This document shows, piece after piece, positions 6,247 to 25,700 of a DNA stretch of 64,000 bases. The translations under genes and the position numbers were made by a program. Source of the stretch: Caulobacteraceae bacterium (GTDB lineage: Bacteria; Pseudomonadota; Alphaproteobacteria; Caulobacterales; Caulobacteraceae); contig JAUJMO010000001.1 in assembly GCA_030446805.1 (NCBI GenBank), positions 949,241-1,013,240 of the forward strand, given 5' to 3'. Under the pieces are notes generated by a model. That model worked only from the letters and a program-made list of their open reading frames with translations, was not told where the DNA came from and did no database searches. Numbering within the stretch: position 1 is the first letter of the stretch; every line of letters starts with the position of its first letter.

Positions 6247-7232
6247 GCCCGTCCAGCGCCGGTCGAGCCTTGAGCGTCTGGGCGGTTTCGGACGGACGGG
6301 CCGGGATGGCCAATCAGGTGCTGGGCCTGGCCGAGGCCGTGGCGCAGCGCCGGCCCTGCACGGTCACCTCCAAGCGGGTAGTCTGGCGGGCGCCGTGGGG
6401 CCGGGCGCCCCAGGCGCTCAACCTGTTTCCGCTATGGGCCCTTTCGCCGGAATCCGACCCGATAGAAGCGCCCTGGCCCGATCTGTGGATCGCAGCCGGA
6501 CGCGCGACCTTGCCGCTGTCCATGGGCGTTCGGCGTTGGTCGGCCGGGAAGACCTTTGTCGTTCAAGTGCAGGACCCGCGCTGGCCGACGCACCTCTTCG
6601 ACCTGGTGATCCCGCCGGAGCACGATGAACTGACGGGCCCCAATGTCTTCCCCATCGTCGGCTCCCCCAATCGGATCACCCCCGAACGACTGGCCGAAGC
6701 CGAATCGGAGTTCCACGACCGCATCGCCCCCCTGCCCTCCCCGCGGGTGGCCGTGCTGGTGGGGGGCAAGTCCAAGGCGCACGATCTGACGCCTCAACGG
6801 GCGCGCGATCTGGCCTCCGAAATCGCCACCGCCGTGGAGGGCGCCCGGGGCTCGGTTCTGGTCACCTTCTCCCGCCGCACGCCGCAGGACGCCCGGCGCT
6901 TCATGGCCGGCCGGCTGGGTCGGCTGCCCGGATGGGTTTGGGACGGCGAGGGCGCGAACCCCTACCACGCCTTTCTGGCCGCCGCCGACCTCGTGTTGGT
7001 CACCGAGGACAGCACCAACATGGCCGCCGAAGCCGCCGCGGCCGGCAAGCCCGTGCTGGTCATGCACCTGGACGGCGACAGCCCCAAACACCGCCGGCTG
7101 CACGACAGCCTTCGCAAACGGCTGGCCGCCCGCCCCTTCCGCGGCGCGCTGGAGCGCTGGACCTATCCGCCCCTGCGTGAGACGGAGCGGGCCGCGGCGG
7201 AGGTCGTCAGGCGCATGGGACCGGCGCGGTGA
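6228..7232 (+). CDS. ELM1-family protein (DUF1022), glycosyltransferase-like
   Basis: About 334 residues. The motif SVWAVSDGRAGMANQVLGLA near the N-terminus is diagnostic of the ELM1/DUF1022 family, found in alphaproteobacteria and in plant mitochondria, where ELM1 affects fission. The C-terminal half contains LVTEDSTNMAAEAAAAGKPV, resembling the nucleotide-sugar binding region of GT-B glycosyltransferases, so an envelope glycan role is possible but unproven in bacteria. ATG 6228 is used as start. An in-frame ATG at 6162 would overlap the 58-codon ORF, and a TTG close to the first conserved block is another option. Confidence 0.8.
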   Translation: MGEAGLSPSSAGRALSVWAVSDGRAGMANQVLGLAEAVAQRRPCTVTSKRVVWRAPWGRAPQALNLFPLWALSPESDPIEAPWPDLWIAAGRATLPLSMGVRRWSAGKTFVVQVQDPRWPTHLFDLVIPPEHDELTGPNVFPIVGSPNRITPERLAEAESEFHDRIAPLPSPRVAVLVGGKSKAHDLTPQRARDLASEIATAVEGARGSVLVTFSRRTPQDARRFMAGRLGRLPGWVWDGEGANPYHAFLAAADLVLVTEDSTNMAAEAAAAGKPVLVMHLDGDSPKHRRLHDSLRKRLAARPFRGALERWTYPPLRETERAAAEVVRRMGPAR

Positions 7233-17370: not shown

Positions 17371-18285
17371 TTGACCCCGTCCGCTCCTTCAGCAGCCAAC
17401 GACCGCCTCGCGTTCGACGACCGCTTCCACAAGCGTCTCGCCCACTGGAACCACCGCCGCCTCTCGCCCGGGTTCCCGCATGCCGACTGGCGCGCCGAAC
17501 TGGCCGAAGAGCACGCGATGCGCGAACTCGAAAGCGAGTTCATGGAGGCTTTCCGCGCCGAGGTGGCCGAGCGCGCCGCTACGGCGCCCACCGATCCCGA
17601 GGGCATGCTCCGCTGGTTCGAGGACCTGAAGGACACCGGACCCGGCCAGAACGATCCGCTGTTTCCCTGGCTGGCCGAAGAGGCGGACATGGAGGCTATG
17701 CGCTGGTTCCTGCAACAGGAAGTGGCGGGCGAGGCGGGCTTTGACGACCTTGTGGCCTACACCCAGGTCAAGATGCCCGTGCCCCGCGCCAAGCTGGAGC
17801 TGGCGGCCAACTACTGGGACGAGATGGGCCGCGGCAGCGAAGCCGGCATGCATGGCCCCATGCTGGACGCCCTGGCTCGGAAGCTGGACCTGCAGCCCGA
17901 AATCGACACCACCGTGGGTCCGGCCTTGGCCCTGGGCAACACCCTGGTCGCGATGGCCACCCACCGACGCTACGCCTACCACTCCGTGGGCGGGTTGGGC
18001 GTGGTCGAGCTTACCGCCCCTTGGCGCGCCGACCTGATCGCCCAAGGGCTCAAACGCCTGGGGGTGGGCAAGGAGCGGATCTATTTCGCCCTGCACGCCA
18101 CCCTGGACATCAAGCACAGCGAAACCTGGAACGCTGAGGTGCTCCAGCCGCTGGTGGCCGCCGATCCCGGGTGCGCGCGCTACATCGCCGAAGGCGCGCT
18201 GATGCGCCTCACCTCCGGCGCGCGGTGCTTCGAAGCCTACCGCGCCCACCTCTGGGGCAAGGACGACCTTCGGGGCGCGGCCTAA
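17371..18285 (+). CDS. Iron-containing redox enzyme family protein (haem-oxygenase-like fold)
   Basis: A 304-residue all-helical protein. The spaced metal-ligand type residues in FPWLAEEADMEAMRWFLQQE, LELAANYWDEMGRGSEAGMH and the downstream ALHATLDIKHSETWNAEVLQ fit the iron-containing redox enzyme family with a haem-oxygenase-like diiron fold. Members carry out varied oxidations, and some act on fatty acids or amino acids; the substrate here cannot be predicted. The start is the TTG at 17371, as no ATG occurs before the conserved part. It diverges from the methyltransferase gene. Confidence 0.78.
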   Translation: MTPSAPSAANDRLAFDDRFHKRLAHWNHRRLSPGFPHADWRAELAEEHAMRELESEFMEAFRAEVAERAATAPTDPEGMLRWFEDLKDTGPGQNDPLFPWLAEEADMEAMRWFLQQEVAGEAGFDDLVAYTQVKMPVPRAKLELAANYWDEMGRGSEAGMHGPMLDALARKLDLQPEIDTTVGPALALGNTLVAMATHRRYAYHSVGGLGVVELTAPWRADLIAQGLKRLGVGKERIYFALHATLDIKHSETWNAEVLQPLVAADPGCARYIAEGALMRLTSGARCFEAYRAHLWGKDDLRGAA

Positions 18286-18381
18286 GCCTGGCCTTACTGT
18301 AATTTCACTTAGCTTTCGGCGAGTTCACTAGGGTCGGGGCACGGTTGAAGCGACCCTGCGGCTCTCACTGGGAGCCCAGCC

Positions 18382-18657
18382 ATGAAGACCGCAGACCTTC
18401 TCCTCTCCGCCCTCCTCGTCGCCACCGCCGTGTCACCGGCGGCCGCGGAAACCGCCGTCCGAGGCGATCGAAGCGCCAGCCCCACGGTCGCCGATTCGGG
18501 GTCCTCGGGCTCCGCGCCCCAGGCCCGCATGATATGCCGCCGTCAGGAGACCACCGGCGCCCGCACGGGCGGCGAGCGCATCTGCCTGACCAAGGAGCAA
18601 TGGCGCATCGTGCACAAGGGGGGTTCGGTCACCACCTATCAGAAGCGCGTCCGCTGA
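18382..18657 (+). CDS. Small exported protein with paired cysteines
   Basis: A 91-residue product with a clear signal peptide (MKTADLLLSALLVATAVSPA, cleavage probably after AAAE or just before). The mature part is about 68 residues, and its conserved-looking end ARMICRRQETTGARTGG, then RICLTKEQWR, has two cysteines that could form a disulphide in the periplasm. It resembles short uncharacterised proteins common in Caulobacterales and sphingomonads. No function is known. The gene stands alone upstream of ssrA. Confidence 0.75.
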   Translation: MKTADLLLSALLVATAVSPAAAETAVRGDRSASPTVADSGSSGSAPQARMICRRQETTGARTGGERICLTKEQWRIVHKGGSVTTYQKRVR

Positions 18658-18699
18658 CCGGCGACTGCGCCCGGGTCTTCCCTCCTTAACCCTCCTCCC

Positions 18700-18706
18700 C
18701 TATATC
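18700..18706 (+). promoter_or_regulatory. Candidate -10 element for ssrA
   Basis: CTATATC fits most of the Caulobacter housekeeping -10 (GCTANAWC) and lies just before the predicted 5' end of the acceptor RNA. The -35 is poorly defined (CTTAAC about 12 bp upstream). Confidence 0.4.
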
Positions 18707-18710
18707 AGCC

Positions 18711-19010
18711 GGGTCCCGCCTCGGCGGAACTATGGGGATAAACGAGCGCGTAATAGGCGGTCCGGACCCGGGTGCGATTCCCGGCGGCTCCACCAATACT
18801 TCCCCGCTTGGGCGGGGCAGCATGGGGCCGATCAGCTTCGACGGGCGGTTCAAAGGCGATTTCTTTCCCTCAGAGTGAGCCCCTGTGATCGGCTCATTTT
18901 CTAACTGCGAACGATAACTTCGCTGAGGAAGTCCGTTTGGCCGCGTAAGCGGTCCGATAGACATCCGACCTAAGCCCGGGGGGTTCAGATCCTCCGGCGG
19001 GGCCGGGAGG
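18711..19010 (+). ncRNA. ssrA: tmRNA, two-piece circularly permuted
   Basis: The acceptor piece comes first and ends in CCA at 18795, with the T-arm CCGGGTGCGATTCCCGG. The coding piece starts at 18824 with GGGGCCGATCAGCTTCGACG. Its first seven bases pair with CGGCTCC before the ACCA of the acceptor piece, including one G-U, rebuilding the acceptor stem. The tag reading frame runs 18907-18948 and with the charged alanine gives the tag AANDNFAEEVRLAA. GGTCCCGCC (18712-18720) pairs with GGCGGGGCC (18996-19004), supporting the long helix that joins the pieces. The linker 18796-18823 should be removed. Outer ends are approximate. tmRNA frees stalled ribosomes and tags nascent proteins for ClpXP. 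Confidence 0.95.
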
Positions 19011-19128
19011 GGGCCTGCCAACAGAACCCCTCCACTTTCCCGCGCCTGCGCCGTTACGACACGCAAGACCGCTTGCGCACACGCGTCGCCGCGTTAGGTT
19101 CTCCGCCTCTCCCGAGCCTTCTCGCCCC

Positions 19129-19647
19129 ATGACCGACACCGGCAAGCCCGAAGACCTGATGGACTATGAGGGGCTCGCCCAGGAGGCCCTGCGCGGCGTC
19201 GTGCGCGGCGCACTCCGGCGCGGCCTCGATCCCCAGGGCCTGCCAGGCGCCCACCATTTTTACATCACTTTCAAGACCCACGGACCCGGCGTCAGCGCCC
19301 CGGCCGACCTCCTCACCCGTTATCCGGATGAGATGACCATCGTCCTGCAGCACCAGTATTGGGACCTGCAGGTGGATGAGACGCAGTTCGCCATCACGCT
19401 CAAGTTCGGCGGTCAGCCGAAGCGGATGGTGGTGCCCTACGCCGCCGTGACCCGTTTCTACGACCCCAGCGTACAGTTCCTGCTGCAGTTCGAAGCCACC
19501 GAGCCCGCCTCCGCCCCGGTCGTCTCCCTGGAGCCCGCCTCCACGCCGGCGCTCCGCGACGCCAACGCCGAACCACCTCCCGTCCCCAACAACGCGGAGG
19601 ACGCGGGACCCAAGATCGTCTCCTTGGACCAGTTCCGGAAGAAATGA
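19129..19647 (+). CDS. sspB: SspB alpha, ClpXP adaptor for ssrA-tagged proteins
   Basis: The 172-residue protein has the SspB core (about residues 8-128), including HHFYITFKTHGPGVSAPADL, MTIVLQHQYWDLQVDETQFA and KRMVVPYAAVTRFYDPSVQF. A flexible Pro/Ala/Ser linker follows, then a conserved tail (KIVSLDQFRKK) that in alphaproteobacterial SspB docks on ClpX. SspB dimers grip the ssrA tag and deliver substrates to ClpXP. It lies 118 bp downstream of ssrA, which encodes the tag it should recognise, and overlaps the next gene by ATGA. Confidence 0.95.
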   Translation: MTDTGKPEDLMDYEGLAQEALRGVVRGALRRGLDPQGLPGAHHFYITFKTHGPGVSAPADLLTRYPDEMTIVLQHQYWDLQVDETQFAITLKFGGQPKRMVVPYAAVTRFYDPSVQFLLQFEATEPASAPVVSLEPASTPALRDANAEPPPVPNNAEDAGPKIVSLDQFRKK

Positions 19648-20417
19648 CGCGAGCGGCGGTCCGCGCCATCCTCGGCCTGGTCGCAGTTGTCCTGAGCTGC
19701 GGCTTTCAGGCCGCGCCAACCCCCGCCCCCTTCTCCGACTGGGCCGCGATCGTGGTCGCGGCGGATTGGCGCGCCGGCAACGGCAAGCCGACCGCGGCCT
19801 TCGACAACGCCCGGCGCGACGTCTCCGCCGCCCTGATCCGCGCCGGCTTCCGCCGCGAGAACCTGCGCAGCTACGCTGTAGAGCCCAGCGCCGGGGTGGG
19901 GGAAACCAATCCGCGAAACGTGTTCGTAGGCTTGGCCGAGCTGGCGCGGAAGGCCCCGGGGGGCTGCCTGGTGTACATGACCTCGCATGGCTCGCCGGAC
20001 GGCATTGTTTTCGGTCGCAACGGGCAACTGCCGCCGGCCGTGCTCGGGAGATTGCTCAACGCGACCTGCCGCGATCGGCCAACGGTGGTCATGATCTCCG
20101 CCTGCTTCTCCGGAGTCTATGTCCCGGCCCTCTCCGCGCCCGAGCGGCTGGTCGTCACCGCCGCCCGTCGTGACCGCACCTCGTTCGGCTGCGGCGAGGA
20201 CGACACCTATCCCTTCTTCGACGGCTGCGTCCTGGAGAACTTTCCGCGGGCTGGGGATTTCCTCGCCTTGGCTCGAGGCGTTCAGGCCTGCGTCGCCCGG
20301 CGCGAGACGGAGCTGAAGCTGTCTCCCGCCTCCGAACCGCAGATCAGCGCCGGCGCCCGCATCCGGCCCCTGCTGCCCTTGCTTCCCTTGAACGGCGCCG
20401 AACAGCCTGCCCCTTGA
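19644..20417 (+). CDS. Peptidase C13 (legumain-like) family protein, exported
   Basis: A 257-residue protein with an N-terminal signal or anchor (about residues 7-25, ILGLVAVVLSCGFQAAPTPA). The clan CD dyad is present: His 115 in YMTSHGSPDG and Cys 154 in MISACFSGVYVP, following WAAIVVAADW at the start of the fold. Bacterial C13 proteins are exported or periplasmic and uncharacterised; plant and animal members are asparaginyl endopeptidases. The ATG overlaps the sspB stop (ATGA). A cysteine just before the mature part (SCG) might be a lipobox variant, but this is unsure. Confidence 0.88.
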   Translation: MTRAAVRAILGLVAVVLSCGFQAAPTPAPFSDWAAIVVAADWRAGNGKPTAAFDNARRDVSAALIRAGFRRENLRSYAVEPSAGVGETNPRNVFVGLAELARKAPGGCLVYMTSHGSPDGIVFGRNGQLPPAVLGRLLNATCRDRPTVVMISACFSGVYVPALSAPERLVVTAARRDRTSFGCGEDDTYPFFDGCVLENFPRAGDFLALARGVQACVARRETELKLSPASEPQISAGARIRPLLPLLPLNGAEQPAP

Positions 20418-20466
20418 CGTCGGGCGCCCGAGCGGCGCGGATGAGACGGGAACGGGAGTCGGGTGG

Positions 20467-22737
20467 ATGAAGCGTGCGCTGCGCGCCTTCGCGCTTGGGT
20501 TGACGCTGGTTTCGGGCCTCTCCGCGCCCTTGCCGCCCATCCGGATTTCGGAGGCTCACGCTTTTGCTGCGCCCAGCTACCGCGTCCTGCCCGATGAGCG
20601 GGCAGCCCGCGCCCGGCGGCAAGCCCAGCAACGCGCTCGGCAGGCGCAGCGCCGCGCCGCGCCGCGCCCAGGCGACCGTCCGCGCGCAGCGGCCCGCCCC
20701 CGCCCAAGCTCCGCGACAGCCGCGGCTCCGGCCGGCGCCGCTTCGGCTGCGGCCGCCGCCGCCGCGAGCCCCGCCGTCCCCTCCCTCACGCCCGTGGTCC
20801 CCGTCCCGCCTGCACCGGCCCGCCCCGGTGCTCGCCTCGGCCCCGGCCAACTGCCCCCGCCGACCGAGTTGGAAGCCTTCGTGGACGGCATGGTTCGCGA
20901 CGCCATGGGCGCGGAGCACATCGCGGGCGTGGCCGTCGCCGTGGTGGGGGGAAATCAGATCCTTCTCAATAAGGGATACGGCTTCGCCGATTATCGGCCG
21001 CGTCCCCGTCCGGTGAACCCCGACCGGACCCTGTTTCGTCTGGGCAGCGTGTCCAAGACCTTCACCTGGATCGCGCTGATGCAGCAGGTCGAGGCGGGCC
21101 GCATCCGCCTGGACGCCCCGGTGAACGCCTACCTGCCCGAGCCGGCCCAGGTTCCCGACCGACGCCGCTGGCGCGCCGTCCAGGTCCGTGACCTCCTGAC
21201 CCACACTCCGGGGTTCGAGGACCGGGCGCTGGGCCACCTGTTCGAGCGCCGGCCGGACCAAGTCCGCCCTCTGCTCACCTACCTGGCCGAGGAGCGTCCG
21301 CAGCGTGTGCGAGCGCCGGGCGATCTACCGACCTATTCCAACTACGGTGCGGCCCTGGCCGGCGCCGCGGCCGCTCAGGCGGCGGGCCTGCCCTTCGCAG
21401 AGCTGGTCGAGCGCCGCGTCACCGGCCCGCTCGGGATGACGCGCACCAGCTTCCGCGAGCCCTATCCCGCCCGCGCCGGCCTTCCAGCACCGCTGCCGCC
21501 GACGCTGGCGGCCGACCTCAGCGAAGGGTTTCATTGGACCGGCTCAGGGTTCCAGCCCCGCCCCACCGAACTGATCACCCAGGTGGCGCCGGCCGGCGCG
21601 GCCAGCGCCACTTCGGGCGATATGGCCCGCTTCATGATCGCCCTCCTCAACGACGGCGCGGCCGCTGACGGCGCCCGCATCTACAGCCCGGGAACGGCGC
21701 GCGCCTTTCGCACCGTCCTTCAACGCTCGGCGCCTGGCGTGAACGGCTGGGCGCACGGCTTCATGGAGTACGACCTGCCCGGCGGCTTCACCGGCTTCGG
21801 CCATGGCGGCGCCACGCTTTCCTTCTTCACCAGCCTCGTCACCGTGCCCGAACTTGGGCTGGGCGTTTTCGTCACCACCAACACCGACACGGGTCGTCCT
21901 CTCGTGGAGCGCCTCCCGGCCCTCTTGGTGGACCGGTTCTACGCCCCGCCGCCGGCCGCGCCCCTGCCCGGCTCCGACGCCCTGGAGACCAGGGCTGAGG
22001 CCTTTGCCGGGACCTATCTCACCACCCGTCGCGCTTACGGCGGCCTGGAGGGCTTCGCCTCGCGCATCACCGGTGCGGCCGATGTGCGGATCAGCGAGGA
22101 TGGGCGGCTGCTCACGCCCGATCGGGGCGGGGCGCGGGCCTGGACGCCTGAGGCGCCCAACGGCTCGGTCACCGGGCGCTTTCGGTCGGACGACGGCGCC
22201 GAAAACCTGGTCTTCCAGATGGAGGACGGCCGCGCCGTGCGCTGGTACGCTCCCTGGGGCGGGGCGGCTTACGACCGTCAGTCCTGGCTGGGCAGCCCGG
22301 TCAGTCTCGCCATCCTGGCCAACCTCATGCTCCTGGCCAGCATCCTGGCCTTGATCGGCGCCGTGCTTCGCCTGCGCCGCAATGGACGGCCCAGTTCGGC
22401 CCAAGCGCGTTCGGGCGCCGTGGAGGCCGCCGCCGCCCTTTTCTGGATCCTGGCCTTCGCCGGGTTCATCGGCTTCGCCGTCAGCGCCGCCGTGAACGAA
22501 GCCGATCTCCTTTACGATTGGCCGGGCCCTTGGCTGCGGATCGGCTCCGGGGCGGCCCTGCTGGCCGCCCTCTTGTCGGTGACGCTGCTGGCCTTGCTGC
22601 TTCCCGCCTGGCGTTCGGAGAGCCGGGGCGGCTGGACACTCGGCCGGCGCCTCCGCCACACGGTGACCGCCCTGCTTTTCGCAGCCACCGCCGCCCTGCT
22701 GGCAAGCTGGGGCGCGCTGCAGCCCTGGACGGCCTGA
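20467..22737 (+). CDS. Serine hydrolase (class C beta-lactamase-like) with C-terminal membrane domain
   Basis: A 756-residue protein with a signal peptide, then an Arg/Ala/Pro-rich disordered linker (about 40-125), then a penicillin-binding/beta-lactamase fold. The catalytic SxxK is S194-V-S-K197 and the YxN motif is Y290-S-N. GFGHGGATLS resembles the HxG third motif. Residues about 615-756 contain some four membrane segments (SLAILANLMLLASILALIGA, AAALFWILAFAGFIGFAVSA, AALLAALLSVTLLALLL). The activity could be D-aminopeptidase, esterase or muropeptide related. It starts 49 bp after the C13 gene. Confidence 0.88.
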   Translation: MKRALRAFALGLTLVSGLSAPLPPIRISEAHAFAAPSYRVLPDERAARARRQAQQRARQAQRRAAPRPGDRPRAAARPRPSSATAAAPAGAASAAAAAAASPAVPSLTPVVPVPPAPARPGARLGPGQLPPPTELEAFVDGMVRDAMGAEHIAGVAVAVVGGNQILLNKGYGFADYRPRPRPVNPDRTLFRLGSVSKTFTWIALMQQVEAGRIRLDAPVNAYLPEPAQVPDRRRWRAVQVRDLLTHTPGFEDRALGHLFERRPDQVRPLLTYLAEERPQRVRAPGDLPTYSNYGAALAGAAAAQAAGLPFAELVERRVTGPLGMTRTSFREPYPARAGLPAPLPPTLAADLSEGFHWTGSGFQPRPTELITQVAPAGAASATSGDMARFMIALLNDGAAADGARIYSPGTARAFRTVLQRSAPGVNGWAHGFMEYDLPGGFTGFGHGGATLSFFTSLVTVPELGLGVFVTTNTDTGRPLVERLPALLVDRFYAPPPAAPLPGSDALETRAEAFAGTYLTTRRAYGGLEGFASRITGAADVRISEDGRLLTPDRGGARAWTPEAPNGSVTGRFRSDDGAENLVFQMEDGRAVRWYAPWGGAAYDRQSWLGSPVSLAILANLMLLASILALIGAVLRLRRNGRPSSAQARSGAVEAAAALFWILAFAGFIGFAVSAAVNEADLLYDWPGPWLRIGSGAALLAALLSVTLLALLLPAWRSESRGGWTLGRRLRHTVTALLFAATAALLASWGALQPWTA

Positions 22738-22745
22738 ACCCCAGC

Positions 22746-25700
22746 CTACTCAGCCGCCTGTGGGACGGGTTGAACCGGGGTCGGGCCGTGGCGGTCGTTC
22801 AGGTTGGCCCCGTGCTCGGCCTCATAGGCCTCGATCTGACGGCTGGTCCATTCGGGCGACTTGGTGAAACGCGCGAGCAGGCCGTACATCACGGGCACCA
22901 CGAACAGCGTCAGCAGGGTCGAGAAGATCGCGCCCGTGAAGATGACCACCCCGATCGTCTGACGGCTCTCGGCCCCGGCGCCCTGCCACAGCACCAGCGG
23001 CAAGGCCCCGAACGCGGTCGCGATGGACGTCATGATGATGGGCCTGAGACGCAAGGCCGAGGCCTCGATCACCGCCTCGCACGCCGACAGCCCTTCGTCG
23101 CGCAGCTGGTTGGAAAACTCCACGATGAGGATGCCGTTCTTGGCCGCGACGCCCACCAGGATGATCAGCCCGATCTGGCTGTAGATGTTGAGGCTCGACC
23201 CCGCCATCAGCAACCCGAACAGCCCGCCGGCCGCCGCCAGCGGCACCGTCAGCATGATGATCGAGGGGCTGATCCAACTCTCGAATTGGGCCGCCAGCGC
23301 CAGAAACACCAGGAGCAAGGCCAGTCCAAAGGCGATGAACACCGCCCCGCCGGCCTCCTGGAGGTCGCGCGCGCCGCCGCCCCACCGGACCACCGGCCCC
23401 GGCGGCTGTTTGGCCGCCTCAGCCTCGAAGAAGCTCACGGCGTCGGCGATGGTGTACCCAGGCTGCAGTTCGGCCGAGAGCGTGATGGAGCGCAGCCGGT
23501 CCACCCGGCGTCGGTCGGGCGTGTCGCCCCGGACCTCCGTCGTGACCACCGCCGACAAGGGCACCAGCTGTCCCGAGCCGCCCCGGACGTAGAGGGTGTT
23601 CAGGTCCTCGACCGAGCGTCGGTCGTTCAGCCCGGCCTGCAGAAGCACGTCGTACTCCTGGCCGCCGCGAATGTAGGTGGTGGACCGCCGCGCCCCGAAG
23701 TTGGTCTCGAGCGTCCGACCGATGTCGGAAGGCGAGACGCCCAGCGCCGCCGCCTTTTCCCGGTCCACGTCGACCAGGAGCCGCGGAGCATTGGGTTCAT
23801 AGTCCAGCCGCGGCCGCCCCAACCCGGGGTTGTCCCGGGCGGCCGCCAGCAAGGGCTGCATCCAGCGCGCCAAGTCCTCGTATTCCGAAGCGCCCGTGGC
23901 GATTAGCTCCACGCTGTTGCCGCCCCCGCCTCCGCCCCCGCCGCGCTGGAAAGGCCCGCGCACGCTGGCGGTTACCCGCGCGCCCGTGATGGAGGACAGC
24001 TCCCTGTTCAGCTGGGCGGCCAGGTCGTCCGCGGAGATGTTCCGCTCGCCCAAGGGCTTCAGCGTCAGCACGCCGCTGCCGGAGTTGAAATTGGCGCCGC
24101 CGAACCCCGGCGCGCTGATCAGGTAGCGCTCGGCAGGCTTGCCGGGTCCCTCGCCCGTGAGCGCGGCCAGCCGCGGCTCCACCTCTCGCGCAACCCGGAC
24201 GATGGCGTCGTAGCCGGTGCCTTCTGGAGCCTGGAAGCGGATGTCCACCCGCCCGCGATCCTCATTGGGCACCAGCTCCGACGGCAGCGCCTTCCATAGC
24301 CCCGCCGCGCACAACCCCACGACAAGGATCAGGGCCGCCACGCCCACGGCGGCCGCGCGCCGGCCCACCATCATGTTCAGGGAGGCCCGATAGCTGTCGC
24401 GGAGCGCGTTCATGCCCCGGTCGATCCTGCGCGCCACCCAGCCCTGGTTGTGCGCCGGCCGCAGCAGCTTGGAGGCCAGCATGGGCGACAGGCTCAGGGC
24501 CAGGAAGGCCGAAAAGGCCACGGCGGCCGCGATCGCCGCCGCCAGTTCGACGAACAGCCGCCCGATATAGCCGGGCAGGAACAGCAAGGGTGCGAACACC
24601 GCGATCAGAACGATCGTGGTGGCGACCACGGCGAAGAACACCTGCCGCGCGCCGCGCTGGGCCGCCACCGCAGGCGGTTCGCCCATGTCCACACGTCGCT
24701 GGATGTTCTCCGTGACTACGATGGCGTCGTCCACGACCAATCCGATGGCGAGCACCATCGCGAGCAGTGTCAGGAGGTTCAGCGAAAACCCGAGCGGCGC
24801 CAGCACGATGAAGGTGGCCAGGAGGCAGATGGGCGCCACAAGCGTGGGAATGAGCGCAGCCCGCCAGGTGCCCAGGAACAGGAAGTTCACCAGTCCCACC
24901 AGGACCAGGGATATGCCGATGGTGACATAAACCTCGTGGATGGCTTCGGACGTGAACTCCGACGCATCGGACGCGACGATGAAGGTGGCGCCCTCCGGCA
25001 GGCCGCCGCGGACCTCCTCCATGGCCGTGCGCACGCCCTTGCTGATCTCCAGGTCGTTGGCCTGGGACTGGCGGGTGATCGCCAATCCGATCTGGTCCTT
25101 GCCGTTGCCGCGGAACATGCGCCGCCGGTCGTTGGCGGCCTCCACCACCCGCGCGACGTCGCCCAGCCGCGTGACATAGGCCTGCTCCGCCTCCCCGCCC
25201 GCCACCGCCCGGCCCGTCACCAGGCCGGAGGCGCTGACCGTTCCCCCGGCGGTGCTGCGCGCGGCTGTGCCGATCGGCAGCTGCACGAAGTCTTCGGCCC
25301 GGGCGTAGCCCCGCGCCACGCGGATGGTGAAATCCTTGTCCTGGCCTTCCAGCGTCCCCGCCGGCAGCTCGTTGTTGTTGGCGGCCAGCGCCGTCTCGAC
25401 GTCCGCGACCGTGAGCCCGCGCGCGGCCAGCGCGTCCGCGTCCAGCTCGATGCGCATGGCGTACTGCTGCTCGCCGAAGATGCGGACATTGGCGACGCCG
25501 GGCACCGTCGAGAACCGCTCGACCAGATAGCGTTCGGCATAGTCCGTCAGCTCCAGCCGGCTCAGGTTCGGCGCCGACAGGAACAGTATCATGATGGGCG
25601 CGGCGTCCGCGTCCGCCTTGGCCACCTGCGGCGCGTTGGCCTGCTCCGGTAGGGCGTTGGCCACGCGAGAGACGGCGTCGCGCACGTCGTTGGCCGCATC

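Follow-up and report, generated by a model that had tools for sequence, protein, structure and literature searches.

The 64,000-nucleotide stretch of Caulobacteraceae DNA analyzed here (the window) carries ssrA, sspB, a gene for a C13 peptidase, and a gene for a serine hydrolase, in this order and all on the plus strand. This arrangement raises the question of whether the locus connects ribosome rescue with envelope proteolysis or merely co-expresses the two. The original prediction had proposed a shared quality-control or envelope-proteolysis task. In trans-translation, as established for Caulobacter, tmRNA tags stalled proteins, and SspB passes them to cytosolic ClpXP. The proximity of ssrA and sspB has already been noted in alphaproteobacteria. 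The open-licence literature, which misses most subscription papers, yielded nothing that describes the ssrA-sspB-C13 grouping or assigns C13 a role in Caulobacter, and no bacterial role for C13 peptidases was found there.

The tmRNA and SspB genes

ARAGORN detected one tmRNA, which was permuted and encoded the tag ANDNFAEEVRLAA. The gene matched the Rfam model RF01849 over its full length (positions 1–355 of 355; 208 bits), with both the permuted order and the tag frame present. The whole permuted alpha tmRNA gene spans positions 18674–19036 according to Rfam and 18701–19039 according to ARAGORN. The acceptor piece of this two-piece tmRNA, which ends in CCACCA, was placed at 18701–18795 from the ARAGORN start and permuted mark and from the CCA end at 18795, the piece boundaries being presumed, and the tag reading frame with its stop codon lies at 18907–18948 (ARAGORN and reading of the sequence). 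The sspB gene (19129–19647) encodes a ClpXP adaptor of the SspB-alpha type, with a PF04386 domain scoring 143.5 bits against a cut-off of 27 (7e-42) and with 2qas and 2qaz as the nearest solved structures (8e-56). Its C-terminus reads VSLDQFRKK, which we take to be the ClpX-docking tail. The two genes are neighbors, as predicted, although the gap between them was not the 118 bp originally given: it measured 92 bp when counted from the tmRNA end set by Rfam and 89 bp from that set by ARAGORN.

The Caulobacter SspB-alpha/two-piece tmRNA system (PF04386, RF01849) has in common with this locus a permuted tmRNA, an ANDNFAEE-type tag, a VSLDxFRKK tail, and an ssrA gene near sspB. The ssrA and sspB genes were no different from their counterparts in Caulobacter trans-translation, whereas the downstream genes are outside the described pathway. 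Judging from family membership, the two genes would represent the usual alphaproteobacterial trans-translation pair, with the corresponding putative roles in tagging and delivery.

Both ssrA and sspB were present in every one of 120 genomes sampled from the order, and ssrA preceded sspB within 15 kb on one contig and strand in 99 of them. This linkage amounted to 25/25, 24/24, 18/24, 21/23, and 11/24 in the individual families, and 16 of the 21 misses had the genes on different contigs, some perhaps from draft assembly. A second sspB in genome G096 was considered as evidence of separation and rejected, because the two contigs carry near-duplicate sequence near contig ends. These near-duplicate sspB-thioesterase stretches (L082 and L083, on contigs C30 and C33) suggest a mixed-strain or redundant assembly.

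A small exported-looking protein is encoded upstream of ssrA in the window (18382–18657) and in a locus of another genus (L078:2262–2558), and comparison by eye revealed a similar CRR...ERIC...W pattern in both.

Structural features of the C13 peptidase and the serine hydrolase

The C13 gene (19644–20417) starts by overlapping the sspB stop codon, and the ATGA coupling that had been predicted was found at the 19644–19647 boundary. Its 257-residue product was identified as a C13 (legumain/caspase-fold) cysteine peptidase, in agreement with the original assignment, by a match to PF01650 (3.4e-11; 43.6 bits against a cut-off of 22.8, over 84 of the 258 profile positions), by alignment, and by its predicted model. 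The catalytic dyad, His115 and Cys154, was invariant in 19 of 19 aligned C13 proteins, as were five further cysteines (108, 142, 183, 195, and 216). The AlphaFold2 model (pLDDT 90.3) showed a caspase-like fold. In VIA-align comparisons, about 200–219 residues aligned with legumains and asparaginyl ligases with an rmsd of 2.6–3.0 (Z 19–22), and the model also matched asparaginyl endopeptidases (Z about 22), the GPI transamidase subunit K, GPI8 (Z about 20.8), and metacaspases (Z 19–21). A single-sequence search of the PDB with the C13 protein gave no match, and a profile search gave a weak match to legumain (E 0.0025).

Legumain has an Asn-specific S1 pocket and a C-terminal prodomain. The window protein shares with legumain and the asparaginyl endopeptidases (C13, PF01650) the caspase fold and the catalytic dyad, whose His lies in an SHG and whose Cys in a SACFSG context, with about 13–17% identity; identity to GPI8, with which it has the C13 fold in common, was about 13%. 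In contrast to legumain, it is a bacterial single-domain protein with an N-terminal hydrophobic segment and without the prodomain, its protease domain using model residues 31–257. The EAC motif of legumain reads SAC, with Ser replacing the Glu before the catalytic Cys, and because of this replacement Asn specificity is unproven. Since the N-terminus is hydrophobic, the protein is likely exported, and its cysteines point in the same direction. The protein is most likely a catalytically competent caspase-fold endopeptidase, with a predicted activity.

A serine hydrolase gene follows, as predicted, at 20467–22737, beginning 49 bp past the end of the C13 gene. The PF00144 match (1.2e-61) and the SVSK, YSNY, and HGG motifs, which it has in common with S12 serine hydrolases, placed the product in the S12/beta-lactamase fold. 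Beyond these shared features, the window protein adds a long Pro/Ala-rich N-terminal stretch and, according to hydropathy, C-terminal hydrophobic segments.

Conservation of the sspB-C13 order in Caulobacteraceae

The C13 gene was found in 176 of 249 genomes in a larger sample of Caulobacteraceae. Of the 114 of these for which the places of both SspB and C13 were listed, 113 had C13 on the same strand at most 1.5 kb downstream of sspB, and the remaining one had it on another contig. This selection favors well-scoring SspB and leaves out G002, G032, and G052 (2.6–3.7 kb apart) and G081 (different contigs). These four genomes are included in the count from the order sample, which overlaps in genomes with the set of 114 and in which 22 of 23 C13-bearing Caulobacteraceae had the gene no more than 4 kb downstream of sspB. 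A scan of named genomes placed sspB upstream of C13 in 14 of 18 loci, the exceptions (L100 and L102–L104) being, by record title, outside Caulobacteraceae.

Restriction of the order to near-identical strains, which had been named at the outset as the result that would speak against a functional grouping, was rejected, since the order was kept across genera at about 45–55% C13 identity. The window's other neighbors (CoxE-like, methyltransferase, haem-oxygenase-like, RND pump, and HlyD genes) were kept in one of 44 loci, as judged by tblastn against flanks of a few kb, and this single locus was the near-identical L088. Because the order is kept family-wide while the other flanking genes survive in a single locus, the adjacency of sspB and C13 is beyond chance within the family.

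In genome G081, the C13 gene is on a contig other than that of ssrA and sspB, and inspection by eye placed it by GFA-like and fumarase-like genes (L079, contig C3). A similar fumarase-like gene follows sspB in the C13-less genome G076 (L077; by eye), which suggests rearrangement.

C13 genes outside Caulobacteraceae

The C13 gene was present in 47 of the 120 order genomes and absent from 73, all of which have ssrA and sspB. It was beside sspB in none of the 24 C13-bearing genomes from four other families of the order; the order, whose conservation across alphaproteobacteria had been suggested as a check, held within Caulobacteraceae and broke down in these families. At the class level, C13 was patchy (26/289 genomes), and a class-wide sspB-C13 link was rejected, since tblastn found no sspB in the short, 1.5-kb flanks of C13 loci outside Caulobacteraceae. 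As for the control genomes, Caulobacter vibrioides has a C13 match and Escherichia coli gave none. In a quick tree, which carried a long-branch warning for L108, the Caulobacteraceae C13 proteins clustered with sequences of families f9 and f2.

The C13 gene overlaps the stop codon of an RNA methyltransferase-like gene in two loci of family f9 (L148:4269–6055 and L149:4418–6195). The overlapped gene of L148 showed RNA uracil-methyltransferase similarity (PF05958, 1.4e-8), L149 has a TlyA-like gene (S4 and FtsJ domains) near C13, and Dxs-like genes were read from the sequence near C13. The housekeeping gene to which C13 is coupled therefore differs between lineages. In L108 (G375), from a distant member of the class, a C13-like gene has, at a distance of up to 1.5 kb, a CoxE-like gene with 49% identity to that of the window.

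Composition and spacing of the gene cluster

We compared 35 loci carrying both sspB and C13, a number in which L073 and L089, apparently the same organism (identical C13 rows), are both counted. A 4HBT thioesterase of a 156-aa type lay between the two genes in 24 of them, detected by Pfam in L089 (PF03061, 3.1e-12) and by tblastn elsewhere. The thioesterase was carried in the cluster by most Caulobacter and Phenylobacterium loci read and was absent from this place in the window's genus, the best match elsewhere in the window's genome having 27% identity. The gap from sspB to the thioesterase was −4 to 13 nt in 25 of 25 loci carrying the latter, and the thioesterase was nearly contiguous with its neighbors, with start codons picked nearest the upstream stop, which biases the values toward short gaps, and with no C13 start that could be set in L080. 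This sspB-thioesterase spacing fits a putative operon.

Spacing also bears on whether C13 is driven by its own promoter, with the adjacency representing a gene order passed on by descent, without any link in function or expression. Such independence would be consistent with nine loci lacking both thioesterase and hydrolase, whose Brevundimonas-like label, like some Caulobacter and Phenylobacterium assignments outside L089–L105, we infer. In these loci, C13 starts 50–64 bp or 2.3–3.2 kb past sspB, the longer distance occurring in three, with unrelated genes between that include, among those sampled, an Exo_endo_phos protein and a 2OG-Fe(II) oxygenase. The separation of the two genes in G081 is in line with it as well. 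However, the sspB-C13 overlap by ATGA that the window shares with L088 and the near-zero spacing in thioesterase-bearing loci argue for coupling, and a promoter and terminator scan, which is weak for this group, gave nothing useful and no sigma-70-like site on the plus strand at 18000–23000. We regard an independently expressed C13 gene as rather unlikely.

A serine hydrolase with at least 37% identity followed C13 in 25 of the 35 loci, a 29% match in L071 being left uncounted. This pairing, together with the structural matches to GPI8 and to asparaginyl ligases (Z about 20–22), would accord with a C13 protein that acts mainly as a transpeptidase or ligase, similar to GPI8 or to peptide asparaginyl ligases, and attaches or cyclises envelope proteins in partnership with the S12 hydrolase. 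Fold alone, however, cannot separate a protease from a ligase, and the hydrolase is absent from nine loci; we consider a ligase function quite improbable.

Additional SspB proteins were observed in two lineages. In L098 (6801–7289, plus strand), a second SspB-domain protein (PF04386, 3.2e-26) is encoded between C13 and the serine hydrolase; it lacks a ClpX tail, has two cysteines and a signal-peptide-like N-terminus, and is apparently an exported SspB paralogue. Among the matches listed in the 249-genome family search, G543 (C10:231416–231901) matched this paralogue at 99%. In L074 (G061), a second SspB copy with 41% identity to the window SspB and without the VSLDxFRKK tail lies at approximately 6432–6770 in the reverse-complement orientation, between sspB and C13, where others carry the thioesterase. 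This tail-less copy could bind tags without delivering them.

Shared task or shared expression

The proposed shared quality-control or envelope-proteolysis task was not supported by these data. C13 co-occurred with ssrA and sspB in 47 of 120 genomes, against 120 of 120 for the latter two. In the other families sampled, all 24 genomes with C13 had it away from sspB, and elsewhere in the class one family has it overlapping an RNA methyltransferase-like gene. Moreover, most Caulobacter and Phenylobacterium loci read also carry a thioesterase, and SspB/ClpXP works in the cytosol, a different compartment from that expected for the exported-looking C13. A common quality-control role is conceivable but unsupported, and the evidence favors shared expression over a shared task.

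One form of a shared task would be quality control in two compartments, in which tagged stalled secretory proteins reach the periplasm, beyond ClpXP, and are removed there by C13. Alphaproteobacterial tags begin with Ala-Ala-Asn when the charged alanine is counted, and C13 could cut after Asn. The family-wide sspB-C13 linkage, the fold match to legumains, and the ANDNF... tag are compatible with this scheme, AAN being the sequence in a legumain inhibitor (title of 4awb, legumain with AAN-CMK). Nevertheless, C13 is missing from the 73 order genomes that have ssrA and sspB and is unlinked to sspB outside Caulobacteraceae, the Ser in place of the legumain Glu leaves a preference for Asn unproven, and the SsrA tag of E. 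coli also starts with AAN, yet E. coli gave no C13 match. We consider such a division of labor unlikely. On the basis of the tag sequence and the 4awb title, C13 might further be an envelope arm of trans-translation that recognizes the AAN tag start on exported stalled proteins and cuts the tag or starts degradation, with SspB/ClpXP handling cytosolic ones and both being encoded on the same mRNA; this appears highly improbable.

It is instead fairly probable that known trans-translation genes and an exported cysteine peptidase acting separately in the envelope are combined in one lineage-specific operon. The sspB transcript in Caulobacteraceae would have gained further cistrons, namely the 4HBT thioesterase, C13, and the S12 serine hydrolase in most Caulobacter and Phenylobacterium loci read, and the same set without the thioesterase in the window's genus. 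The C13 product would be secreted to the periplasm and may cleave envelope or secreted proteins there independently of the tag, while linkage to sspB would provide steady housekeeping co-expression, perhaps via translational coupling. Two observations weigh against this reading: the retention of the order at 45–55% identity with other neighbors replaced is stronger than plain hitchhiking needs, and two lineages have an SspB paralogue within the same cluster.

The C13 gene is an addition to a known family, located in an apparently undescribed, putative operon specific to Caulobacteraceae. For bacterial C13 peptidases, the locus provides a context, kept throughout the family, in which function can be tested genetically.
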